64,000 nt of DNA, taken from NCBI GenBank assembly GCA_017619335.1, contig JAFZSP010000067.1:1-64000 (forward strand), in the 5' to 3' direction. Origin of the DNA: Bacteroidaceae bacterium. Its GTDB lineage: Bacteria > Bacteroidota > Bacteroidia > Bacteroidales > Bacteroidaceae. Positions within the stretch are counted from its first letter, which is position 1. Each line of letters opens with the position of its first letter. Positions 3,231 to 20,565 of the stretch are shown in pieces. A program made the position numbers and the translations under genes. Under the pieces are notes generated by a model. That model ran no database searches and was not told the DNA's origin. It was given only the letters and a program-made list of their open reading frames with translations.

Positions 3231-3322
3231 CAGCGAATTTCTGACAGTAAGTAAGCTTTAGACACAAAAAGAAGTAACTTTTGGCACAGAAAAGACACCT
3301 ATTTATTTATATCAAAACCAGC

Positions 3323-5548
3323 ATGATTATGGCAAACGAATTGAGATTCCAGGTTGTAGGAGAGGCGTTCAAGAAGAAGCCGCTCGAAGTGGAAGCACCA
3401 GCAGAAAGACCTTGCGAGTATTTCGGCAAGCATGTCTTCAATCGCGAAAAGATGTACAAGTACCTGCCCAAGGACGTGTATGAGAAGATGATCGACGTCA
3501 TCGACAAAGGTGCACAGCTCGACCGCAAGGTGGCCGACGCTGTGGCAGCAGGCATGATGCAGTGGGCCAAGGAAAATGGCGTGACGCACTACACGCACTG
3601 GTTCCAGCCCCTGACGGAAGGCACCGCCGAGAAACACGACTCGTTCATAGAGCACGACGGTAAAGGCGGTATGATTGAGGAGTTCAGCGGCAAGTTGCTC
3701 GTGCAGCAGGAGCCGGACGCCAGCTCATTCCCCTCTGGCGGCATCCGTTCGACCTTCGAAGCTCGCGGCTACTCAGCTTGGGACCCCACGAGCCCTGTGT
3801 TCATCATCGATGATACATTGATTATCCCCACCGTGTTCATTTCTTACAGCGGTGAAGCGCTTGACTACAAGGCTCCGCTACTGCGTGCACTGAAGGCTGT
3901 GAATGTGGCCGCCACAGAGGTCTGCCACTATTTCGACCCAGCCGTGAAGAAGGTTACCAGCAACCTGGGTTGGGAGCAGGAGTATTTCCTCGTAGATGAA
4001 GGACTCTACGCTGCCCGTCCCGACTTGCTGCTAACGGGTCGCACGCTGATGGGACACGACTCTGCCAAGAACCAGCAGATGGACGACCACTACTTCGGCA
4101 GTATCCCAGAGCGTGTGGCAGCCTTCATGCGCGACCTGGAGATTCAGGCCTTAGAGCTCGGCATTCCCTGCAAGACTCGCCACAACGAGGTGGCTCCCAA
4201 CCAGTTCGAGGTGGCTCCCATCTTTGAGGACACAAACCTGGCTGTAGATCACAACATGCTGCTGATGTCGCTGATGAAGCGCGTTGCCCGCAAGCATGGC
4301 TTCCGCGCCCTCTTACACGAGAAACCATTCGCAGGAATCAATGGTTCTGGTAAGCACAACAACTGGAGCCTCTCAACTGATACGGGCGTGTTGCTTCACG
4401 CTCCCGGCAAGACACCCGAGCAGAACCTGCGCTTCGCCGTGTTCATCGTGGAAACGCTGATGGGTGTATATAAGCACAACGGTCTGCTCAAGGCCTCCAT
4501 CATGAGCGCCACCAATGCTCATCGTCTGGGTGCCAACGAGGCTCCCCCAGCCATCATTTCCAGCTTCCTTGGCAAACAGCTCAGCGAGTTGCTGGACCAT
4601 ATCGAAAAGGCCGACAAGGACGATCTTTTCCGCCTTGACGGTAAGCAAGGAATGAAGATGGACATTCCAGAAATCCCAGAATTACTCATCGACAACACTG
4701 ACCGCAACCGCACCAGCCCCTTCGCCTTCACCGGCAACCGTTTCGAATTCCGTGCTGTGGGTAGCGAGGCCAACTGTGCCAGTGCCATGCTCACGCTGAA
4801 TACCGCTGTGGCAGAGGCCCTAACGAGCTTCAAGAAGCGTGTAGATGCCCGCATCTCCGCTATCTCCAAGGACTTCGAAGGCTCTGAGCATAACGCTACC
4901 TTCCACGCCATCATCGACATCCTGCGCGAGGACATCAAGACCTGCAAGCCCATCCGTTTCGACGGCAACGGCTACAGCGATGAATGGAAGGCAGAAGCTG
5001 CCAAGCGCGGTCTGGATGTGGAGACCAGCTGCCCCGTCATCTTCGAACGCTACCTGGATCCAGATAGCATCGCTATGTTCGAGAGCATGGGCGTGATGAC
5101 CAAGAAGGAGCTGGAGGCTCGTAACGAGGTGAAGTGGGATACCTACACCAAGAAGATTCAGATTGAGGCCCGCGTGCTGGGCGACCTCTCCATGAACCAC
5201 ATCATCCCCGTCGCCACGCGCTACCAGAGTCAGCTGCTGAGCAATGTGGAGGATATGCGCGCCGTGTTCCCCACAGAGAAAGCCGACACGCTCAGCGCCC
5301 GCAACCTCAAGCTCATCGAGGAAATCGCCACCCGCACCGCAGCTATCGAGACAGGCGTGGAGGAACTCGTCGCAGCCCGCAAGGTTGCCAACAAGATTGA
5401 GGACGAGCACGCGAAGGCCATCGCCTACCACGACACCATCGCTCCGATGTTCGACACCATACGCCGGCAGATAGACAAACTGGAGCTCATCGTTGATGAT
5501 GCCCTATGGCCCCTGCCGAAGTACCGCGAACTATTGTTTATCAGATAA
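3323..5548 (+). CDS. glnN: Glutamine synthetase type III
   Basis: GSIII makes glutamine from glutamate, ammonia and ATP in the cytoplasm and is the typical large glutamine synthetase of Bacteroides and Prevotella. The 741-residue product shows family signatures in order: FQPLTEGTAEKHD, GKLLVQQEPDASSFPSGG, GWEQEYFLVD, KTRHNEVAPNQFE, GSGKHNNWSL, DRNRTSPFAFTGNRFEFR and the C-terminal WPLPKYRELLF. I chose the ATG at 3323 (MIMANELRF); the ATG at 3329 is equally plausible, while an upstream TTG at 3281 would add an uncharacteristic N-terminus. Its convergent neighbour is a proline-catabolism gene that would supply glutamate. A strong terminator follows. Confidence 0.97.
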   Translation: MIMANELRFQVVGEAFKKKPLEVEAPAERPCEYFGKHVFNREKMYKYLPKDVYEKMIDVIDKGAQLDRKVADAVAAGMMQWAKENGVTHYTHWFQPLTEGTAEKHDSFIEHDGKGGMIEEFSGKLLVQQEPDASSFPSGGIRSTFEARGYSAWDPTSPVFIIDDTLIIPTVFISYSGEALDYKAPLLRALKAVNVAATEVCHYFDPAVKKVTSNLGWEQEYFLVDEGLYAARPDLLLTGRTLMGHDSAKNQQMDDHYFGSIPERVAAFMRDLEIQALELGIPCKTRHNEVAPNQFEVAPIFEDTNLAVDHNMLLMSLMKRVARKHGFRALLHEKPFAGINGSGKHNNWSLSTDTGVLLHAPGKTPEQNLRFAVFIVETLMGVYKHNGLLKASIMSATNAHRLGANEAPPAIISSFLGKQLSELLDHIEKADKDDLFRLDGKQGMKMDIPEIPELLIDNTDRNRTSPFAFTGNRFEFRAVGSEANCASAMLTLNTAVAEALTSFKKRVDARISAISKDFEGSEHNATFHAIIDILREDIKTCKPIRFDGNGYSDEWKAEAAKRGLDVETSCPVIFERYLDPDSIAMFESMGVMTKKELEARNEVKWDTYTKKIQIEARVLGDLSMNHIIPVATRYQSQLLSNVEDMRAVFPTEKADTLSARNLKLIEEIATRTAAIETGVEELVAARKVANKIEDEHAKAIAYHDTIAPMFDTIRRQIDKLELIVDDALWPLPKYRELLFIR

Positions 5549-5619: not shown

Positions 5620-8600
5620 TTATTCCACAGGCGGCACCTCAATCTGCGAGCCGTAACGATGGTACTCGTTGGAGATGGTCTGCTCATGGAGGTAGCGCAT
5701 GAGTTCTATTCGTCCGTTGCTCACAGGCGGCACGGGGATAACCATCTTTCCTGCTGCATGGGCTGCATCGATGACTTCCTGGGGGACATCATGGGAGAGC
5801 GTGCGGACGCGCTCGAAGTTCTTGATGTTGGCACAGAAGGTGGCCTGTGACTCGAATCGACGTGTGACCCACTTGCAGTTGACGGTCTTGCAACTCATGA
5901 GTTTGGGAACGATGGGATGCGTCTCGTCCAGTGAGATGGTGAGCGGGGTGCGCACGACGCGTGCTGCCTCGATGACCATCCTGACGTGTTCCACAGTCTC
6001 CTCGCCAAAGAAACGGAATACCATTCCGTTGCCTGGGAGAGGCCGATAACGGAAGATGTTCTGCTCGCCACGGATTTCGGGATGGAGGTTGCGGGCGTGC
6101 TGGAACTCTTGTTCATACCATCGTGCGTAGGAATCATGGAAATTGGTCGTCGTGCCAGGCTTGTCGTTGATGATGATGAACTGCATGAGGTAGTTGGGTC
6201 CTCCACTTTTCAAGGCTGGCAGGTCGGGTCTGTCACTCAAAGAACCAAATGGCTGTCGTCCCACCACGGTGCCTGTGATGCCACGATTGATATAGAGGTT
6301 GCCCACTTGGATGTTTTCCTTCCAGTAGCGCTGTTCCTGCTCGTCCAGTGACTGGAGGCCGCTGGTGATGCTGGTGCCGAGGCTGTTGACCAGTGCAACG
6401 GCCTGTTCCAGGGTGTCGAAGGGTGCCACCGCAAGCAGCGGTGCACAGAGCGGTGTGCGGAAGGTGAAGGAACCAGGCTTCACATCCACCTTCACCGTGG
6501 GGCGCAGGATCAGCTGCTCTTGATCCACAAATTCTGGTGCCACCAGCCAGCGCTCTCCCTCATCCAGCTTCAAGGCTCGCTGCAGGCGCTCGTTCTTATT
6601 GGTAATCATGGGGCCGACGATGTTTCCTGCATTCCAGACGGGACCACACTTCAGGGACGAGGCACAGTCTTTCAGCTTCTCCATGAAGTCATGGCTGTTA
6701 TAGACAGAGCGTTCCACCAGCAGCAGTGAGCAGGAAGAGGCTTTCTGCCCTGCCCCTCTGAAGGCCGAGTGGCAGGCATTCATGATGGCATGACAGCGGT
6801 CTCCCTTGGCGGTGAGGATAATGGCGTTCTTGTGGCCCTCTGGTATCTTGATGGCAGAGATGTCGTTCTCGTCAAACTGCAACTGGCGTCCAGTGAACCC
6901 TGCTGCCCTGAAGGCTTGCAGGAAGAGTCGTGCCACAGGTGCTGCAGCCACATCGGCTTTCAGTGTGCAGGTGTTTCCGCTGACCAGTGCTCCAGCCAGG
7001 AATCCAACGGGTGCAGCCAACGGAGCGTTCCAGGTGGCAGTGGTGGTGAGAGCACCCCGAGGCCTCATTTCCAAATCGTCCCACTGCTGGAACTCGCGCA
7101 TGCAGACGGCATAGTAACGGCAGTAGTCCATCGCAGCAGTGACCTCGGCATCGGCTTCCTCTATGGTCTTGCCCACAGCGGCACAGATGCAGCCACAGAG
7201 ATCGGCACGCTTGTTGCCCAAGAGGGTGGCCACATGGAAGAGCTGGTCAATGGGAGAGGTGGAGAAGGAGATCGCGCTGAGTGGATTGGGAGCCATTGGA
7301 CCTTGAACTGTTGCCTGACTCGTCATATTCATGACATTGGCATCCTTGCCCTGCCACTTCTGGAAGATGCTCTCCACCCAACGCTGGTTGCACTCACGGT
7401 CAAAGTCTGTGGCCGGCTCGTTGACAAAGGTGCTGTGGTCTGCTGGCGGCGTGTAGGGACGGTTGCGGTCTTGGGTGCGAGTGGGCGTGTGATTCAGGTG
7501 ATCCTTCATGTTATACGCCTCTGTGAACTGACGCTGCAGCTCGTGCCATTCCTTGGTGTCCGGTTTCAGGGAGAAACTGTGGGTCAGGAAGTTATCAGGG
7601 GCTGTATTCTCATCCATTCGACGGACGAGGTAACTGATGGCATTGAGGAAGTTCTCCTTTTTCACCACGGGGGTATAGAGAATCACGTGGTTGCCCAGTT
7701 TCTTCTGTGCGCGCCAGACGTGGTTGGCCATGCCTTCCAGCATCTCGAAACAGAAGCTGTCCTTGGGCGTCTGATAGAGCTGGGTGAGCAGATAGGCGTA
7801 GGAGATGGTGAAGAGGTTGTGGGAGGCCATTCCGATGTGGAGCACACGGGCGTTCTCAGGTTTCAGGCCGCGCTCGATGATATGCAGGTAGTTGGCATCC
7901 ACCTCTGTCTTGCTCTTGCGCACAGGGTTGGGCCATCCGTTCAAGTCACTGACAATGTTCTCCATATCCAGGTTACACCCCTTGACGATGCGCATCTTGA
8001 TGGGTGAGCCGCCATCTGCCACACGTTGGCGGGCAAACTCCAGCAGTTCAGTCTGGAACCCTTCTGCATCAGGCAGATAGGCCTGAACGACGATGCCCGC
8101 CTCCAAGTTCTTGAACTTCGGCAGCGAGAGCACATCCTTGAAGACCCGCATTGTCAGGTGGGCATCCTTGTATTCTTCCATGTCCAGGTTGATGAACTTG
8201 GGTCTCGTCACACCGTTGGCATCCGTGTAGGGATTGTCGATGGCAGCCTGGTAGAGGGCCGAGATGCGCCTGATGAGTTCAGGGTAGCACTCCTTGTAAT
8301 TCAGTGCGTGGGTCTGCGCATAGATACCAGAGATCTTCACAGAGATATAGTTGATGTCCGGCTCTTTCAGTGCCTCAAAATAGGAATAGTAGCGTTTGTC
8401 TGCCTCCGCATCTCCCAGGACCACTTCTCCCAACAGATTGACATTCTGTCCGATGTCCTCCCTAAAGCGGGTGGCCAGGTGCTGCGTGAGGCTGGGACGT
8501 GCAGCATTGATGATGACGCGGCTGGTATCCCTTCTGAGTCGCCACTTGATGATGGGAACTGCGGCCCAGTTGAACAGGGGCTTGTAGGCAAAGCGCTGGT

Positions 8601-15870: not shown

Positions 15871-18800
15871 CTAACAATCAGTACTCATCCTCGTTGAATG
15901 GAGCAGCGAGCGCAGGGCTGCGGGAACAGGGTGGTTGCAGTCCTGACTCTCCACTTCTTGCAGGAACTTCATTCCTCGCTCTGAGTGCTTGTTGGCATCC
16001 GGGCCTCCCGCCTGTGCCAACCCCAGGTGCCCCAGAGCCATCATCAGCTGGCAGTGAATGGTGTTCTTCTGCTGGAGATCGCCGTCCCAGATGAGGAGGT
16101 CGGGCAGGGAGACAGCGAAATAGTCCATGCGGACCTGGTCAAAGATGTGCTTCTCGCCATAGTTCAGAAGCTTGTAACAGAGGCTGTTGGCAGATGCATC
16201 CTCGCCCAGCTTCCGATAGGCCAGCGCGGCATAGAAGATCTTGTCGGGTTTGGCATCGTTGTAATACATGGCGGCAGCAGGCTCTGTGGGGCCGATGGTG
16301 GCGCGCTCATAGCAGGCTCGGGCCTCTGCTGCGTCTCCTTTCCGCTCATGAGCCAGGCCGAGGAGGAAGTAGAAGTCATTCTCCTGGGCACCGTAGAGCT
16401 TGCCCTCGCCCAAGTGGTGGGGATACTCTAAACACTGATTCAGGAGGCGAATGGCCTCGTCTATGGAAGCTGTTCTTTCTGGATTATCTAAACTATATAG
16501 ATTATCTATACTTCCCAGGATTTTCTTTGCCAGCTCCACACGGCAGATTTGGTACTGTGCAGGCACTTTGCCCTCGCCGCCTTCCCAGGGATGGAACTGG
16601 TGGGCATCCAACTTTTGCATAGCTTCCTCATAACGCCCCACCTGGTTCAGCAACGTGATTTCCTCCAGCACGAGGTCATCACGCAGTGCAATCAGTTGCG
16701 GGTATTTCTGCAGAAAGGCGAGACGTTCTGCATGAGGACGTTGCGTGACCTTGTAGAGCTGGTCCAGCTCCATGAGGATGCGGGCATCGGTCTCGTCCAA
16801 GTGGAAGGCGCGCTCCATCAGCTGCACGGCTTTCTCCTTCAACCCCTGTTTGTTGTAGGCTGCCAGTGCCAGACAGCGCCAGACGGTGGGGAACTGCGGG
16901 TCACGCTCGGCAGAACATTCCCAATTTTGGATGGCCAGATCATACTGGCGTTTATCATAGTACAGGCAGCCGAGATAGAACGGGGCTCGTGCATCCCGTT
17001 CGTTGAACGTTAAGGCAGATTGCAGTATGCAGATGTCTTCCAGGCGATTGGGGAAGCAGCAGGTGGGGTCGGCCTGGGCAGCCTTCTGCAACCACTCCCC
17101 GGCCTGACTGGCTGGCAAAGTACTGGCAAGAAAATAATAGGTAAGTGGCGATGCTTCCACCCCAGGCTTGAGGGCCAGCATTAGAACCTGTCGGGCCTCT
17201 TCACGCAATCCTGCCTGCAGATAGTCCAGTGCCGTCTCGTGGTAGTTCCTCACGGAACCGTTCATGAGGGTGGTCAAGTGTTCTAACGGCTTCTGACTGC
17301 CTGTGAGCAGGTGCTCCTCCACCAAGCAGACGTAATTGAAGGGGTCTATCCTGTAACTCTCCTGAATCCACGCCAGCGCCTCTTCCTTGCGCGCCAATTT
17401 GCGCAGCACGGTGGCTTTCATGGCTCGTGCCTTGTGGTTGTGGGTGTTGCTGATGAGGCAGCGTTCCAGTTCGTCCAGTGCATCCTCATATCGCTCTTCT
17501 GCGATGCTGATGCAAGCAGCCTCGAAGTAACCGGCATCGGCCCACGCCTTGTTCCAGGTGGCTTTCCAGAAAAGCTCATACGCTTCGCGGATTCTATTCT
17601 GGTATTTCAGCGCCAGCGCCAGGTGGAAGATGGGTTCGCCGTCGTAGGGATTGGGATTGCGTTTCTGCCAGACTCGCACAGCACGGCGCAGGTAGTGCTC
17701 GGCCTTGTTAAAGCGTCCGCGACGCAGGAACCACAGCCCCATCTGGTTCAGACAGCGTACATCGTTGGGGTCACGGCGCAAGGCTTCCTCATAATAGTCC
17801 AGGGCCGACCAGGTGGCATGACGGTATTGTTCCAGATGCAGTCCCGTAAGGTACAGCTGGTCCAACGTTTTACACTCCACGGGCGGCAGGGCAGCCTCGG
17901 CACTGTCGGGAATCGGGCGCACCTCATCGGGTTCCGCGTGCCACTGGAGGACGCTGCGTTCGCCATAGGAGAAGGTTTGGAGGATGTTGAAGGTGAGTTT
18001 CTCAAGCGATGCCTTCGGACAGGCCACCGTCTCGGTGAGCACCTCCTCGGGCGACAATGTCAGCACCTTGTCATAATAAACTGTACCTTCATCACTTTTC
18101 AGAATCATACGCACCTCCTGCTTGGAAGTAGCCAAGACCTTAAAGCGAATGCTCTCTTCCACTGCCTCAATATTGAAGATGAAATCCTTGGAGGCCTGCT
18201 TGACGATGCCCAACTCACGATAGGGCATGAAATACTGCGTGAACTGCTTCTCCTCGTAGGGCATCAGCCACGTGAAGTCCGGCTGGTTCTCTGTATAGAT
18301 GCCTGCCATCAGTTCTATGTAGGGTCGGAAACCTGAGGGGGCTTCATCTGTAAGATTCCTGTCCCACGCCCTGCCGAAGTCGCCGTTGCCCCACGTCCAC
18401 TGCTTCTTGCCGGGCGAGAAGTGGTGACTGGCCACGTGAAGCATACCGCCCTGTGTGTCATTCTCATAGCCGCCTTCGAAGTCGTATTTGGAGTTCACGG
18501 CCATGTAACTGGTGGGCACCTTGATATTCTTGTAGTTTGAGATATCCACACCTGCGCTGTAGTCCATCTTGTAGTACGTTCCTGTGGCGATGGGGAAGGA
18601 GGAGACGGCACGCTTCCCGTGGTCAAAGACGGCATTCACATCGGGTGGGAACACACTCTGGTAGGCATCGTTCACCTCCACGGCGGGGTTGGCCCACCAG
18701 AGGAAGGTCTGCGGAAGGGGCGTGCGGTTGCTCAGTCGCCCGCGGATTTCCAGGTAGGCACAGCCGGGACGCAGGGTGAAGCCCACGAGACCCTTCTGAT

Positions 18801-19260
18801 GGAACATCAGTTCCATCTCGTTGCACCACACGGTAACGCTTCCGTCCTCCCCTTCTTCGATGGTGTGATCCACGGGCAGGAAGGTGCTGGGACGATGGTG
18901 CTGGGGCCAGTTGAACTCGATGCCACCGCTGATCCAGGGACCTGCCAGCCCCACCAGCGCAGGCTTGACGACATGATTGTAATAGACGAAATGACGCTGC
19001 TTCACCTTGTCGTAGGCCATCTGCACACGACCGCCCAACTCGGGCAGGATCATCACTTTGAGGTATTCATTCTCCAGGAAGACAGCGTGATAGGTGTGGT
19101 CTGTCTTCTGGTCTGAAATGCTTTCAATGACAGGATAGGGATACACGACACCGCTGGAACCCTGATACACCCTATTCTCCAGGAATATGGGATTCTTCTC
19201 TTCGTGTCCCACCTCATAGGTGGGAATCACCACGTCTTCTCTCCATGCTTTTGGGGACAT
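15871..19260 (-). CDS. DUF5107 domain protein with C-terminal TPR repeats
   Basis: This 1129-residue protein lacks a signal peptide. Residues about 35-350 (LEVMILPELGGRV-like VMILPELGGRVQMAYDK, GGIEFNWPQHHRPSTFLPVD, YLEIRGRLSNRTPLPQTFLWWANPAV) match DUF5107, which resembles aldose-epimerase-like beta-sandwich domains. From about residue 470 onward lie many tetratricopeptide helices (for example DPNDVRCLNQMGLWFLRRGRFNKAEHYLRRAVRVW). The gene starts 21 bases after a sugar transporter gene ends, so the pair likely handles one carbohydrate in the cytoplasm. A catalytic activity cannot be shown from sequence alone. Confidence 0.85.
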   Translation of the reverse strand: MSPKAWREDVVIPTYEVGHEEKNPIFLENRVYQGSSGVVYPYPVIESISDQKTDHTYHAVFLENEYLKVMILPELGGRVQMAYDKVKQRHFVYYNHVVKPALVGLAGPWISGGIEFNWPQHHRPSTFLPVDHTIEEGEDGSVTVWCNEMELMFHQKGLVGFTLRPGCAYLEIRGRLSNRTPLPQTFLWWANPAVEVNDAYQSVFPPDVNAVFDHGKRAVSSFPIATGTYYKMDYSAGVDISNYKNIKVPTSYMAVNSKYDFEGGYENDTQGGMLHVASHHFSPGKKQWTWGNGDFGRAWDRNLTDEAPSGFRPYIELMAGIYTENQPDFTWLMPYEEKQFTQYFMPYRELGIVKQASKDFIFNIEAVEESIRFKVLATSKQEVRMILKSDEGTVYYDKVLTLSPEEVLTETVACPKASLEKLTFNILQTFSYGERSVLQWHAEPDEVRPIPDSAEAALPPVECKTLDQLYLTGLHLEQYRHATWSALDYYEEALRRDPNDVRCLNQMGLWFLRRGRFNKAEHYLRRAVRVWQKRNPNPYDGEPIFHLALALKYQNRIREAYELFWKATWNKAWADAGYFEAACISIAEERYEDALDELERCLISNTHNHKARAMKATVLRKLARKEEALAWIQESYRIDPFNYVCLVEEHLLTGSQKPLEHLTTLMNGSVRNYHETALDYLQAGLREEARQVLMLALKPGVEASPLTYYFLASTLPASQAGEWLQKAAQADPTCCFPNRLEDICILQSALTFNERDARAPFYLGCLYYDKRQYDLAIQNWECSAERDPQFPTVWRCLALAAYNKQGLKEKAVQLMERAFHLDETDARILMELDQLYKVTQRPHAERLAFLQKYPQLIALRDDLVLEEITLLNQVGRYEEAMQKLDAHQFHPWEGGEGKVPAQYQICRVELAKKILGSIDNLYSLDNPERTASIDEAIRLLNQCLEYPHHLGEGKLYGAQENDFYFLLGLAHERKGDAAEARACYERATIGPTEPAAAMYYNDAKPDKIFYAALAYRKLGEDASANSLCYKLLNYGEKHIFDQVRMDYFAVSLPDLLIWDGDLQQKNTIHCQLMMALGHLGLAQAGGPDANKHSERGMKFLQEVESQDCNHPVPAALRSLLHSTRMSTDC

Positions 19261-19281
19261 ATCGTTTTTAGTTTAATGTGA

Positions 19282-20565
19282 TTACTTGACCAATTCTTGC
19301 TCCAGTTGCTCCAACGTCTTGCCCTTCGTCTCTGGGCAGGTCTTCCACAAATAGAGAAAGGCGCAGGCACAGATGGTAGCGTAGATCCAGAACGTGCCGC
19401 TGCTGCCCAGGGCTGCGTTCATCGAGGGGAAGGAGAACGTCAGCGTGCAGCAGCCCACCCAGAGGGCAAAGGTACAGGTGGCCATCGCCACGCCTCGGAT
19501 GCGGTGGGGGAAAATCTCTGCCAACAGCGTCCATGTGACGGGCCCCAGCGTCATCGCATAGACAGAGATAGCTGTCACCACCAGTGCCACCATCATCACA
19601 CCCTTCACCTCGAAGAAGTAGCAGGTGCCCAGCGTCAAATAGATGAGTCCCAGCCCACCGGCACCGATGAGCATCAGTGTGCGGCGACCCCAACGCTCGA
19701 TGGTGTAAAGTGCCACAAAAGTGAACAGCACATTGGCCACACCTGTGATGACGATGTTGATGAACATCCCATCTACATCAAAGCCTGCTCCAACGAAGAT
19801 TTCCTGTGCGTAATTGAAAATCACGTTCGTGCCGCACCACTGCTGGAAGACTGCGATGACCAAGCCCAACAAAAGAATGCGGCTATACTTACTTTGGAAC
19901 AACTCCTTCAGGCCTGCCTCCTCATTCTTTATTTTTAGTTTTTCATTTTTGATTTTCAGAAATACGGGGCTTTCTGGAATGAAGAAGCTCAGCAGCATGA
20001 ACAGCGCTGCCGGCACCGTCTCTGCCCAGAACATCCAACGCCAGCCCCATGCCACATTCCACACCTGAGACGCTGCCACACTCGTGTCCCGGGCCAACAG
20101 CAGATTCACCACCTGTGCTGCCAGGATTCCCAACACAATCGTCATCTGATTCAGGCTCACCAAGCGTCCGCGAATTGAGGCAGGGCTGACCTCGGCGATG
20201 TACATAGGCGACAGCGCTGAGGCCACCCCAATACCCACGCCTCCCACGAAGCGTGCTATATTAAATAAGGTGAAGTCGTCAAACAGCCCAGTCCCGATGG
20301 CGGAAACGGTGAACAGCACAGCCGCCGTCGTCAGCAGCGGCTTGCGACCATAGCGGTCGGCCAGCGCACCTGCAATCATGGCGCCCGCAAGGCAGCCCAC
20401 CAACGCTGTGGTCATCGCAATGCCCTGCATCAACGGCGAGTCCGCGATGCCGAAGAACAGTTCATAAAAAGGCTTGGCGCCGCCTATCACCACCCAATCG
20501 TAACCAAAGAGCAGACCGCCCATGGCAGAGACAGAGCAGATGAAGAAAAGAAAGCTTTTTTTCAT
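19282..20565 (-). CDS. Sugar porter of the major facilitator superfamily
   Basis: The 427-residue protein carries sugar-porter signatures: GGLLFGYDWVVIGGA in the first helix, DRYGRKP between helices 2 and 3, RFVGGVGIG, PMYIAEVSPASIRGR, ERWGRRT, and PETKGKTLEQLE at the C-terminus. This places it with XylE/GLUT-type proton-coupled symporters of the inner membrane; the sugar is unknown. The central loop contains FLKIKNEKLKIKNEE, encoded by an AT-rich direct repeat. It is the first gene of a two-gene operon with the DUF5107/TPR gene and has its own promoter at 20594-20627. Confidence 0.92.
   Translation of the reverse strand: MKKSFLFFICSVSAMGGLLFGYDWVVIGGAKPFYELFFGIADSPLMQGIAMTTALVGCLAGAMIAGALADRYGRKPLLTTAAVLFTVSAIGTGLFDDFTLFNIARFVGGVGIGVASALSPMYIAEVSPASIRGRLVSLNQMTIVLGILAAQVVNLLLARDTSVAASQVWNVAWGWRWMFWAETVPAALFMLLSFFIPESPVFLKIKNEKLKIKNEEAGLKELFQSKYSRILLLGLVIAVFQQWCGTNVIFNYAQEIFVGAGFDVDGMFINIVITGVANVLFTFVALYTIERWGRRTLMLIGAGGLGLIYLTLGTCYFFEVKGVMMVALVVTAISVYAMTLGPVTWTLLAEIFPHRIRGVAMATCTFALWVGCCTLTFSFPSMNAALGSSGTFWIYATICACAFLYLWKTCPETKGKTLEQLEQELVK
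19926..19963 (-). repeat. AT-rich direct repeat inside the sugar porter gene
   Basis: Two near-copies of an A-rich unit (AAAATCAAAAATGAAAAACT type) encode the LKIKNEKLKIKNEE stretch in the cytoplasmic loop between the two halves of the transporter. Base composition is sharply different from the GC-rich flanks. Confidence 0.6.

Follow-up and report, generated by a model that had tools for sequence, protein, structure and literature searches.

The putA-type gene in the window (the 64,000-nucleotide stretch of Bacteroidaceae DNA analysed here) raises the question of what the second half of a fused enzyme does when its aldehyde dehydrogenase (ALDH) active site appears to have been lost. PutA is the textbook example of a fusion enzyme that carries out two steps and has a buried tunnel, and a dead second site joined to an untouched first site would be a natural knock-out that tests the purpose of the fusion. 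The reading frame is intact over 1087 residues, as the first-pass annotation of this DNA had stated; it is single and uninterrupted, with 0 internal stops between 5620 and 8883 on the minus strand. Pfam searches of the protein return a strong proline dehydrogenase (PRODH) match (PF01619, 188 bits), in which the conserved PRODH active-site residues are present, together with an ALDH match in split form. The retained PRODH residues include K183, D234, Q267, Y403, R421, R422 and E425. The protein falls below the cut-off of every NCBIfam P5C dehydrogenase (P5CDH) or PutA model listed, the best of them scoring 217 bits where 747 are required. A gene for a type III glutamine synthetase-like protein of 755 aa (window 3281-5548, plus strand) is convergent with putA at a distance of about 70 bases and has no counterpart in the fetched putA neighbourhoods of relatives.

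Table 1. Features of the window putA-type gene, in window coordinates.
Feature	Residues	Position	Strand	Observation
putA-type gene: PRODH, degenerate P5CDH and C-terminal domain	1087 aa	5620..8883	minus	
PRODH domain (PF01619)	138-434	7582..8472	minus	every family-invariant position retained
ALDH half, NAD-binding part	546-680	6844..7248	minus	25/90 intact-invariant columns lost in 8/8 species
PWNFP to TWNAP, Phe to Ala	620	7024..7026	minus	Asn619 retained (alignment)
Junction of 33-residue deletion	near 676/677	6855..6856	minus	relative to closest intact relatives
ALDH half, catalytic/oligomerisation part	681-905	6169..6843	minus	15/139 invariant columns lost
ETGG Glu to Pro	681	6841..6843	minus	alignment with intact relatives
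Catalytic Cys to Ala	715	6739..6741	minus	A/T/V/G at that column across the eight dead species
ELFAP Glu to Pro	811	6451..6453	minus	Pro in 8/8 dead species
Anchor loop	880-893	6205..6246	minus	intact GGMKLSAFGPGLKAGG rewritten or shortened
C-terminal domain	906-1087	5623..6168	minus	0/54 invariant columns lost

The extent of the loss is revealed by comparison with reference motifs taken from 80 aligned homologues and from whole-genome matches. Where the intact family reads, in order, LTGG, SAETGGKN, AGQKCSACS and RTELFAPLL, the window protein has a 33-residue gap followed by PEGHKN, AGQKASSCS and RTPLCAPLL (PEGH at 681-684, GQKASSCS at 712-719, RTPLCAPLL at 809-817). All three sites fall within 6180-7100, the range given by the first-pass annotation. 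The nucleophile site was correctly described in the first-pass annotation, since the nucleophile Cys of intact relatives aligns to Ala715. Its placing of the former ETGG motif at PEGH also holds, but Glu682 aligns with the Thr and it is Pro681 that replaces the old Glu. Similarly, the replacement of EIFGPVL by RTPLCAPLL is genuine only with respect to its Glu (now Pro811), because the family itself reads ELFAP at this site. This Glu is a nicotinamide-ribose contact in ALDHs, and the LTGG/FTGS segment is likewise an NAD contact. The FTGS region had been estimated as 25-35 residues short; measured against the closest intact relatives, which read LTGG, the shortfall is 33 residues, corresponding to the VILTGG strand with a helix on either side (residues 678-708 in the model of an intact sister). 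Relative to type B PutA, a linker segment has been deleted in addition to the LTGG segment. In Sinorhizobium meliloti PutA, the semialdehyde is held by the corresponding Asn, Phe and Cys and by the anchor loop, and the Ala620 column, matched by motif rather than by superposition, is that of the aromatic-box Phe708 (PMC12398946). Thus the alignment finds neither the catalytic Cys, nor the NAD-binding motifs, nor the GSA-binding elements of a bifunctional PutA in the P5CDH half of the window protein. The joint loss in eight species of the nucleophile, the ETGG Glu, the NAD-contact Glu, the LTGG segment, the aromatic Phe and the anchor loop supports the interpretation of this half as a pseudoenzyme, and judged from sequence it is almost certainly catalytically dead.

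A displaced nucleophile had been named beforehand as the finding that would overturn this interpretation: Cys718 would take over the reaction and the enzyme would still be a P5C dehydrogenase. This residue is indeed invariant in 54 of 54 aligned homologues; the intact enzymes, however, conserve it just as strictly, three residues past their real nucleophile, and it is therefore the ordinary second Cys of GQKCSACS. The Glu, the NAD segment, the ELFAP Glu, the PWNF Phe and the anchor loop have also been lost, which leaves this alternative scarcely credible, and Cys718 was rejected as a nucleophile.

The same form of PutA occurs across eight species, all from a single genus of rumen Bacteroidaceae, namely that of the window genome and G023, G092, G082, G088, G028, G017 and G059. 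PRODH was found in 35 of 139 genomes of the genus, always within a PutA frame except for one contig-cut fragment. The eight species come from separate metagenome assemblies and all of the losses are common to them. The window genome is a draft of 103 contigs, which might invite the suspicion of a sequencing or assembly artefact; shared losses in eight independent assemblies exclude chance or sequencing error, and the clean frames and purifying dN/dS values further refute it, so that the probability of an artefact is negligible. In the phylogenetic tree the dead species cluster next to three species with intact PutA (G053, G091, G093), the joint node having support of 100/100, while monophyly of the dead clade on its own is supported at 65/89 in one tree and at 99 in another. 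The PutAs of these intact sisters (L160, L161, L162) have intact motifs and lack about 40-50 residues ahead of the ALDH half relative to other homologues. They possibly represent an intermediate stage, and because part of the pre-ALDH segment is already missing from them, the decay looks stepwise. Among 399 genomes from 30 genera of the family, the one-piece ALDH match typical of the dead form turned up in this genus alone, in a scan scored by the split of the match rather than residue by residue. Literature searches, whose coverage excluded subscription papers, found no publication that describes a PutA whose P5CDH half is dead.

The distribution of constraint along the protein distinguishes its two halves. 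None of 293 intact-invariant PRODH columns has been lost in all eight dead species, compared with 2 of 30 in the linker and the larger fractions listed in Table 1 for the ALDH half, which amount to 40 of 229 columns. Mean identity among dead and intact forms, respectively, is 92 versus 89% for PRODH, 57 versus 89% for the NAD part and 75 versus 88% for the catalytic part. Pairwise dN/dS values (Nei-Gojobori, with synonymous divergence partly near saturation) are 0.03-0.055 in dead and 0.02-0.03 in intact forms for PRODH, 0.16-0.29 versus 0.02-0.06 for the NAD part and 0.06-0.21 versus 0.02-0.05 for the catalytic part. The ALDH half thus evolves several-fold faster in the dead forms yet remains well below a ratio of 1, which indicates a maintained pseudoenzyme rather than a decaying gene. 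It could alternatively be a remnant without a role, in the process of being lost and persisting merely through its open frame; the raised dN/dS, the hypervariability of the linker and NAD part across the dead species and a gene up to about 110 residues shorter than typical homologues would agree with this. However, its dN/dS is still only 0.06-0.29, the frames are intact in 8 of 8 species, 124 of 139 intact-invariant columns of the catalytic part and 54 of 54 of the C-terminal domain have not been lost across the clade, and an ALDH fold is still predicted. A mere remnant is therefore improbable.

The AlphaFold2 model of the window protein (mean pLDDT 77) retains the PutA/ALDH fold, including the C-terminal domain. 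Its best solved relative is the PutA of Corynebacterium freiburgense (PDB 5ux5; TM 0.68/0.76, Z 33.7, residues 4-1079), the two being 32% identical across 844 residues aligned by structure, and the stand-alone P5CDH 3qan aligns over 398 residues with Z 28.1 and an rmsd of 2.6. The second half has the properties of an ALDH pseudoenzyme, i.e. the fold without the catalytic residues, under purifying selection. Confidence falls below pLDDT 50 at residues 711-716 (the old nucleophile loop), 870-875, 880-882 and 884-889 (including the anchor loop) and in the linker. These regions bear on a further alternative, that the domain has gained a new function, for instance to bind P5C/GSA, to regulate release or to dock a separate P5CDH. 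In its favour, a number of substitutions are clade-wide and not random (E583A, V630A, N710G, E811P and N875G in 8 of 8 dead species; P643A and A644D are found in 7 of 8). Against a new function, the old catalytic loop, anchor loop and NAD segment differ among species and are modelled at low confidence, and no conserved new motif stands in place of the lost segments; we consider it unlikely, if slightly less so than a remnant without a role.

The most satisfactory explanation, and a quite probable one, is that the window protein is a working PRODH with a structural pseudo-P5CDH domain. The first-pass annotation had raised this as one possibility, and its proposal is well supported by undiminished PRODH constraint and by an ALDH half that is motif-dead, predicted to be still folded and under purifying selection. 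The FAD-dependent PRODH half would turn proline to P5C, and the ALDH-fold half would be unable to oxidise glutamate semialdehyde. To judge from its constraint, the pseudo-domain may be retained as a folded partner that probably steadies the barrel of the PRODH half, the packing of the domains and the tunnel through which P5C leaves. A stand-alone NAD-dependent P5C dehydrogenase would next oxidise P5C/GSA in most species of the clade, a hand-over that is likely.

The type B bifunctional PutA 5ux5 likewise has a PRODH barrel with all conserved residues, an ALDH-fold half and a C-terminal domain in the same order; unlike it, the window protein has a P5CDH half without any catalytic or NAD-binding features. 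The C-terminal domain of type B and C PutAs is non-catalytic and aids structure and channelling (PMC5293562). There it accompanies a live P5CDH, whereas in the window protein the P5CDH is itself dead and the C-terminal domain is separate and conserved. Human ALDH16A1 is an ALDH pseudoenzyme that still serves biological functions although its ALDH fold lacks the catalytic residues (PMC10650815); the second half of the window protein resembles it in fold and in the loss of these residues, but ALDH16A1 is not fused to PRODH and is of independent origin. Mycobacterium tuberculosis PruB and PruA are a monofunctional pair of PRODH and P5CDH (PMC10537722), and a comparable division of the two steps between separate polypeptides would hold for six of the eight dead-clade species. 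Unlike PruB, the dead-clade PRODH still carries its dead P5CDH, as a fused enzyme that has become split secondarily. If channelling to the second site were the chief gain from the fusion, this clade would be expected to have kept that site. For annotation, a PutA match alone is an unsafe basis for assigning proline-to-glutamate capacity.

A separate P5C dehydrogenase elsewhere had been predicted by the first-pass annotation, and this is true of most of the clade: 6 of 8 dead-clade genomes encode a stand-alone P5CDH of 541-552 aa that exceeds the TIGR01236 cut-off, and the one such sequence inspected has FTGS, ETGGKD, GQKCSA and EIFGP all intact. The window's own genome may be an exception: profile searches, by which all gene absences were judged, found in its 89%-complete assembly no stand-alone P5CDH and no ALDH other than the window putA and ProA. 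All three intact sisters (G053, G091, G093) lack a stand-alone P5CDH, and seven genomes possess both it and an intact PutA. Its frequency is 6 of 8 in genomes with dead PutA and 7 of 26 in those with intact PutA (p = 0.022), a difference that is not independent evidence because the dead species are one clade.

Throughout the genus, the stand-alone P5CDH is associated with HypD (trans-4-hydroxy-L-proline dehydratase), which yields P5C (PMC7077986). HypD, called by NF043068 above cut-off with contig-end fragments scored as present, is found in 20 of 22 genomes with a stand-alone P5CDH and in 16 of 117 others (Fisher p = 2e-12, which ignores relatedness). The two genes share one neighbourhood in G092, G082, G088, G022 and G017, mostly with an Xaa-Pro peptidase. 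On the simplest history, a stand-alone P5CDH kept or acquired with the P5C-yielding HypD pathway made the fused domain redundant, and it died in one lineage; the association suggests redundancy with a hydroxyproline-linked P5C dehydrogenase as a possible cause of the loss. Clusters of HypD and stand-alone P5CDH, often with an Xaa-Pro peptidase, occur in rumen Bacteroidaceae at L146, L147, L150, L158 and G017:C5 and suggest an oxidative hydroxyproline route in these bacteria, unlike the route described for Clostridiales, which uses P5C reductase (PMC7077986). Nine genomes (G006, G010, G022, G029, G034, G035, G072, G077, G138) possess a stand-alone P5CDH without PRODH or PutA; there the enzyme must serve hydroxyproline or another P5C source.

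This pattern does not extend to the window genome or to G023, its closest relative (80% complete). No stand-alone P5CDH was detected in either, which leaves the hand-over of P5C no more than a possibility in these two, and a shared true loss is plausible. G023 has HypD; searches of the 89%-complete window genome found neither HypD nor a copy of two neighbour genes linked to P5CDH and HypD. An nrdD-nrdG-like pair adjoins P5CDH in G092 and lies mid-contig without P5CDH in the window genome. In G059 the pair is also without P5CDH, which lies elsewhere in that genome, and this synteny is therefore not decisive for a true absence from the window genome. At window positions 15871-20565 (minus strand) are adjacent genes for a 1129 aa repeat protein and a 427 aa transporter-like protein, homologues of which flank an Xaa-Pro peptidase and HypD in G059 (L173) and G017 (L145/L174); the window pair has neither beside it. 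The window genome encodes ProC and ProA with a ProB-like gene between them, and ProC is also present in G023. A tentative and rather doubtful scenario for this lineage is that P5CDH is wholly gone and proline oxidation ends at P5C, which would be reduced back by ProC or excreted; PutA would then pass electrons to the quinone pool as a redox valve between proline and P5C, and the pseudo-ALDH would be a scaffold that holds P5C. Ornithine aminotransferase was considered as an outlet for P5C and rejected, as nothing scored above the TIGR01885 cut-off and the matches were ArgD-like. The ArgD-like match of the window genome sits in an argG-argC-argD/proC-proB-proA region (gene names read from the sequences).
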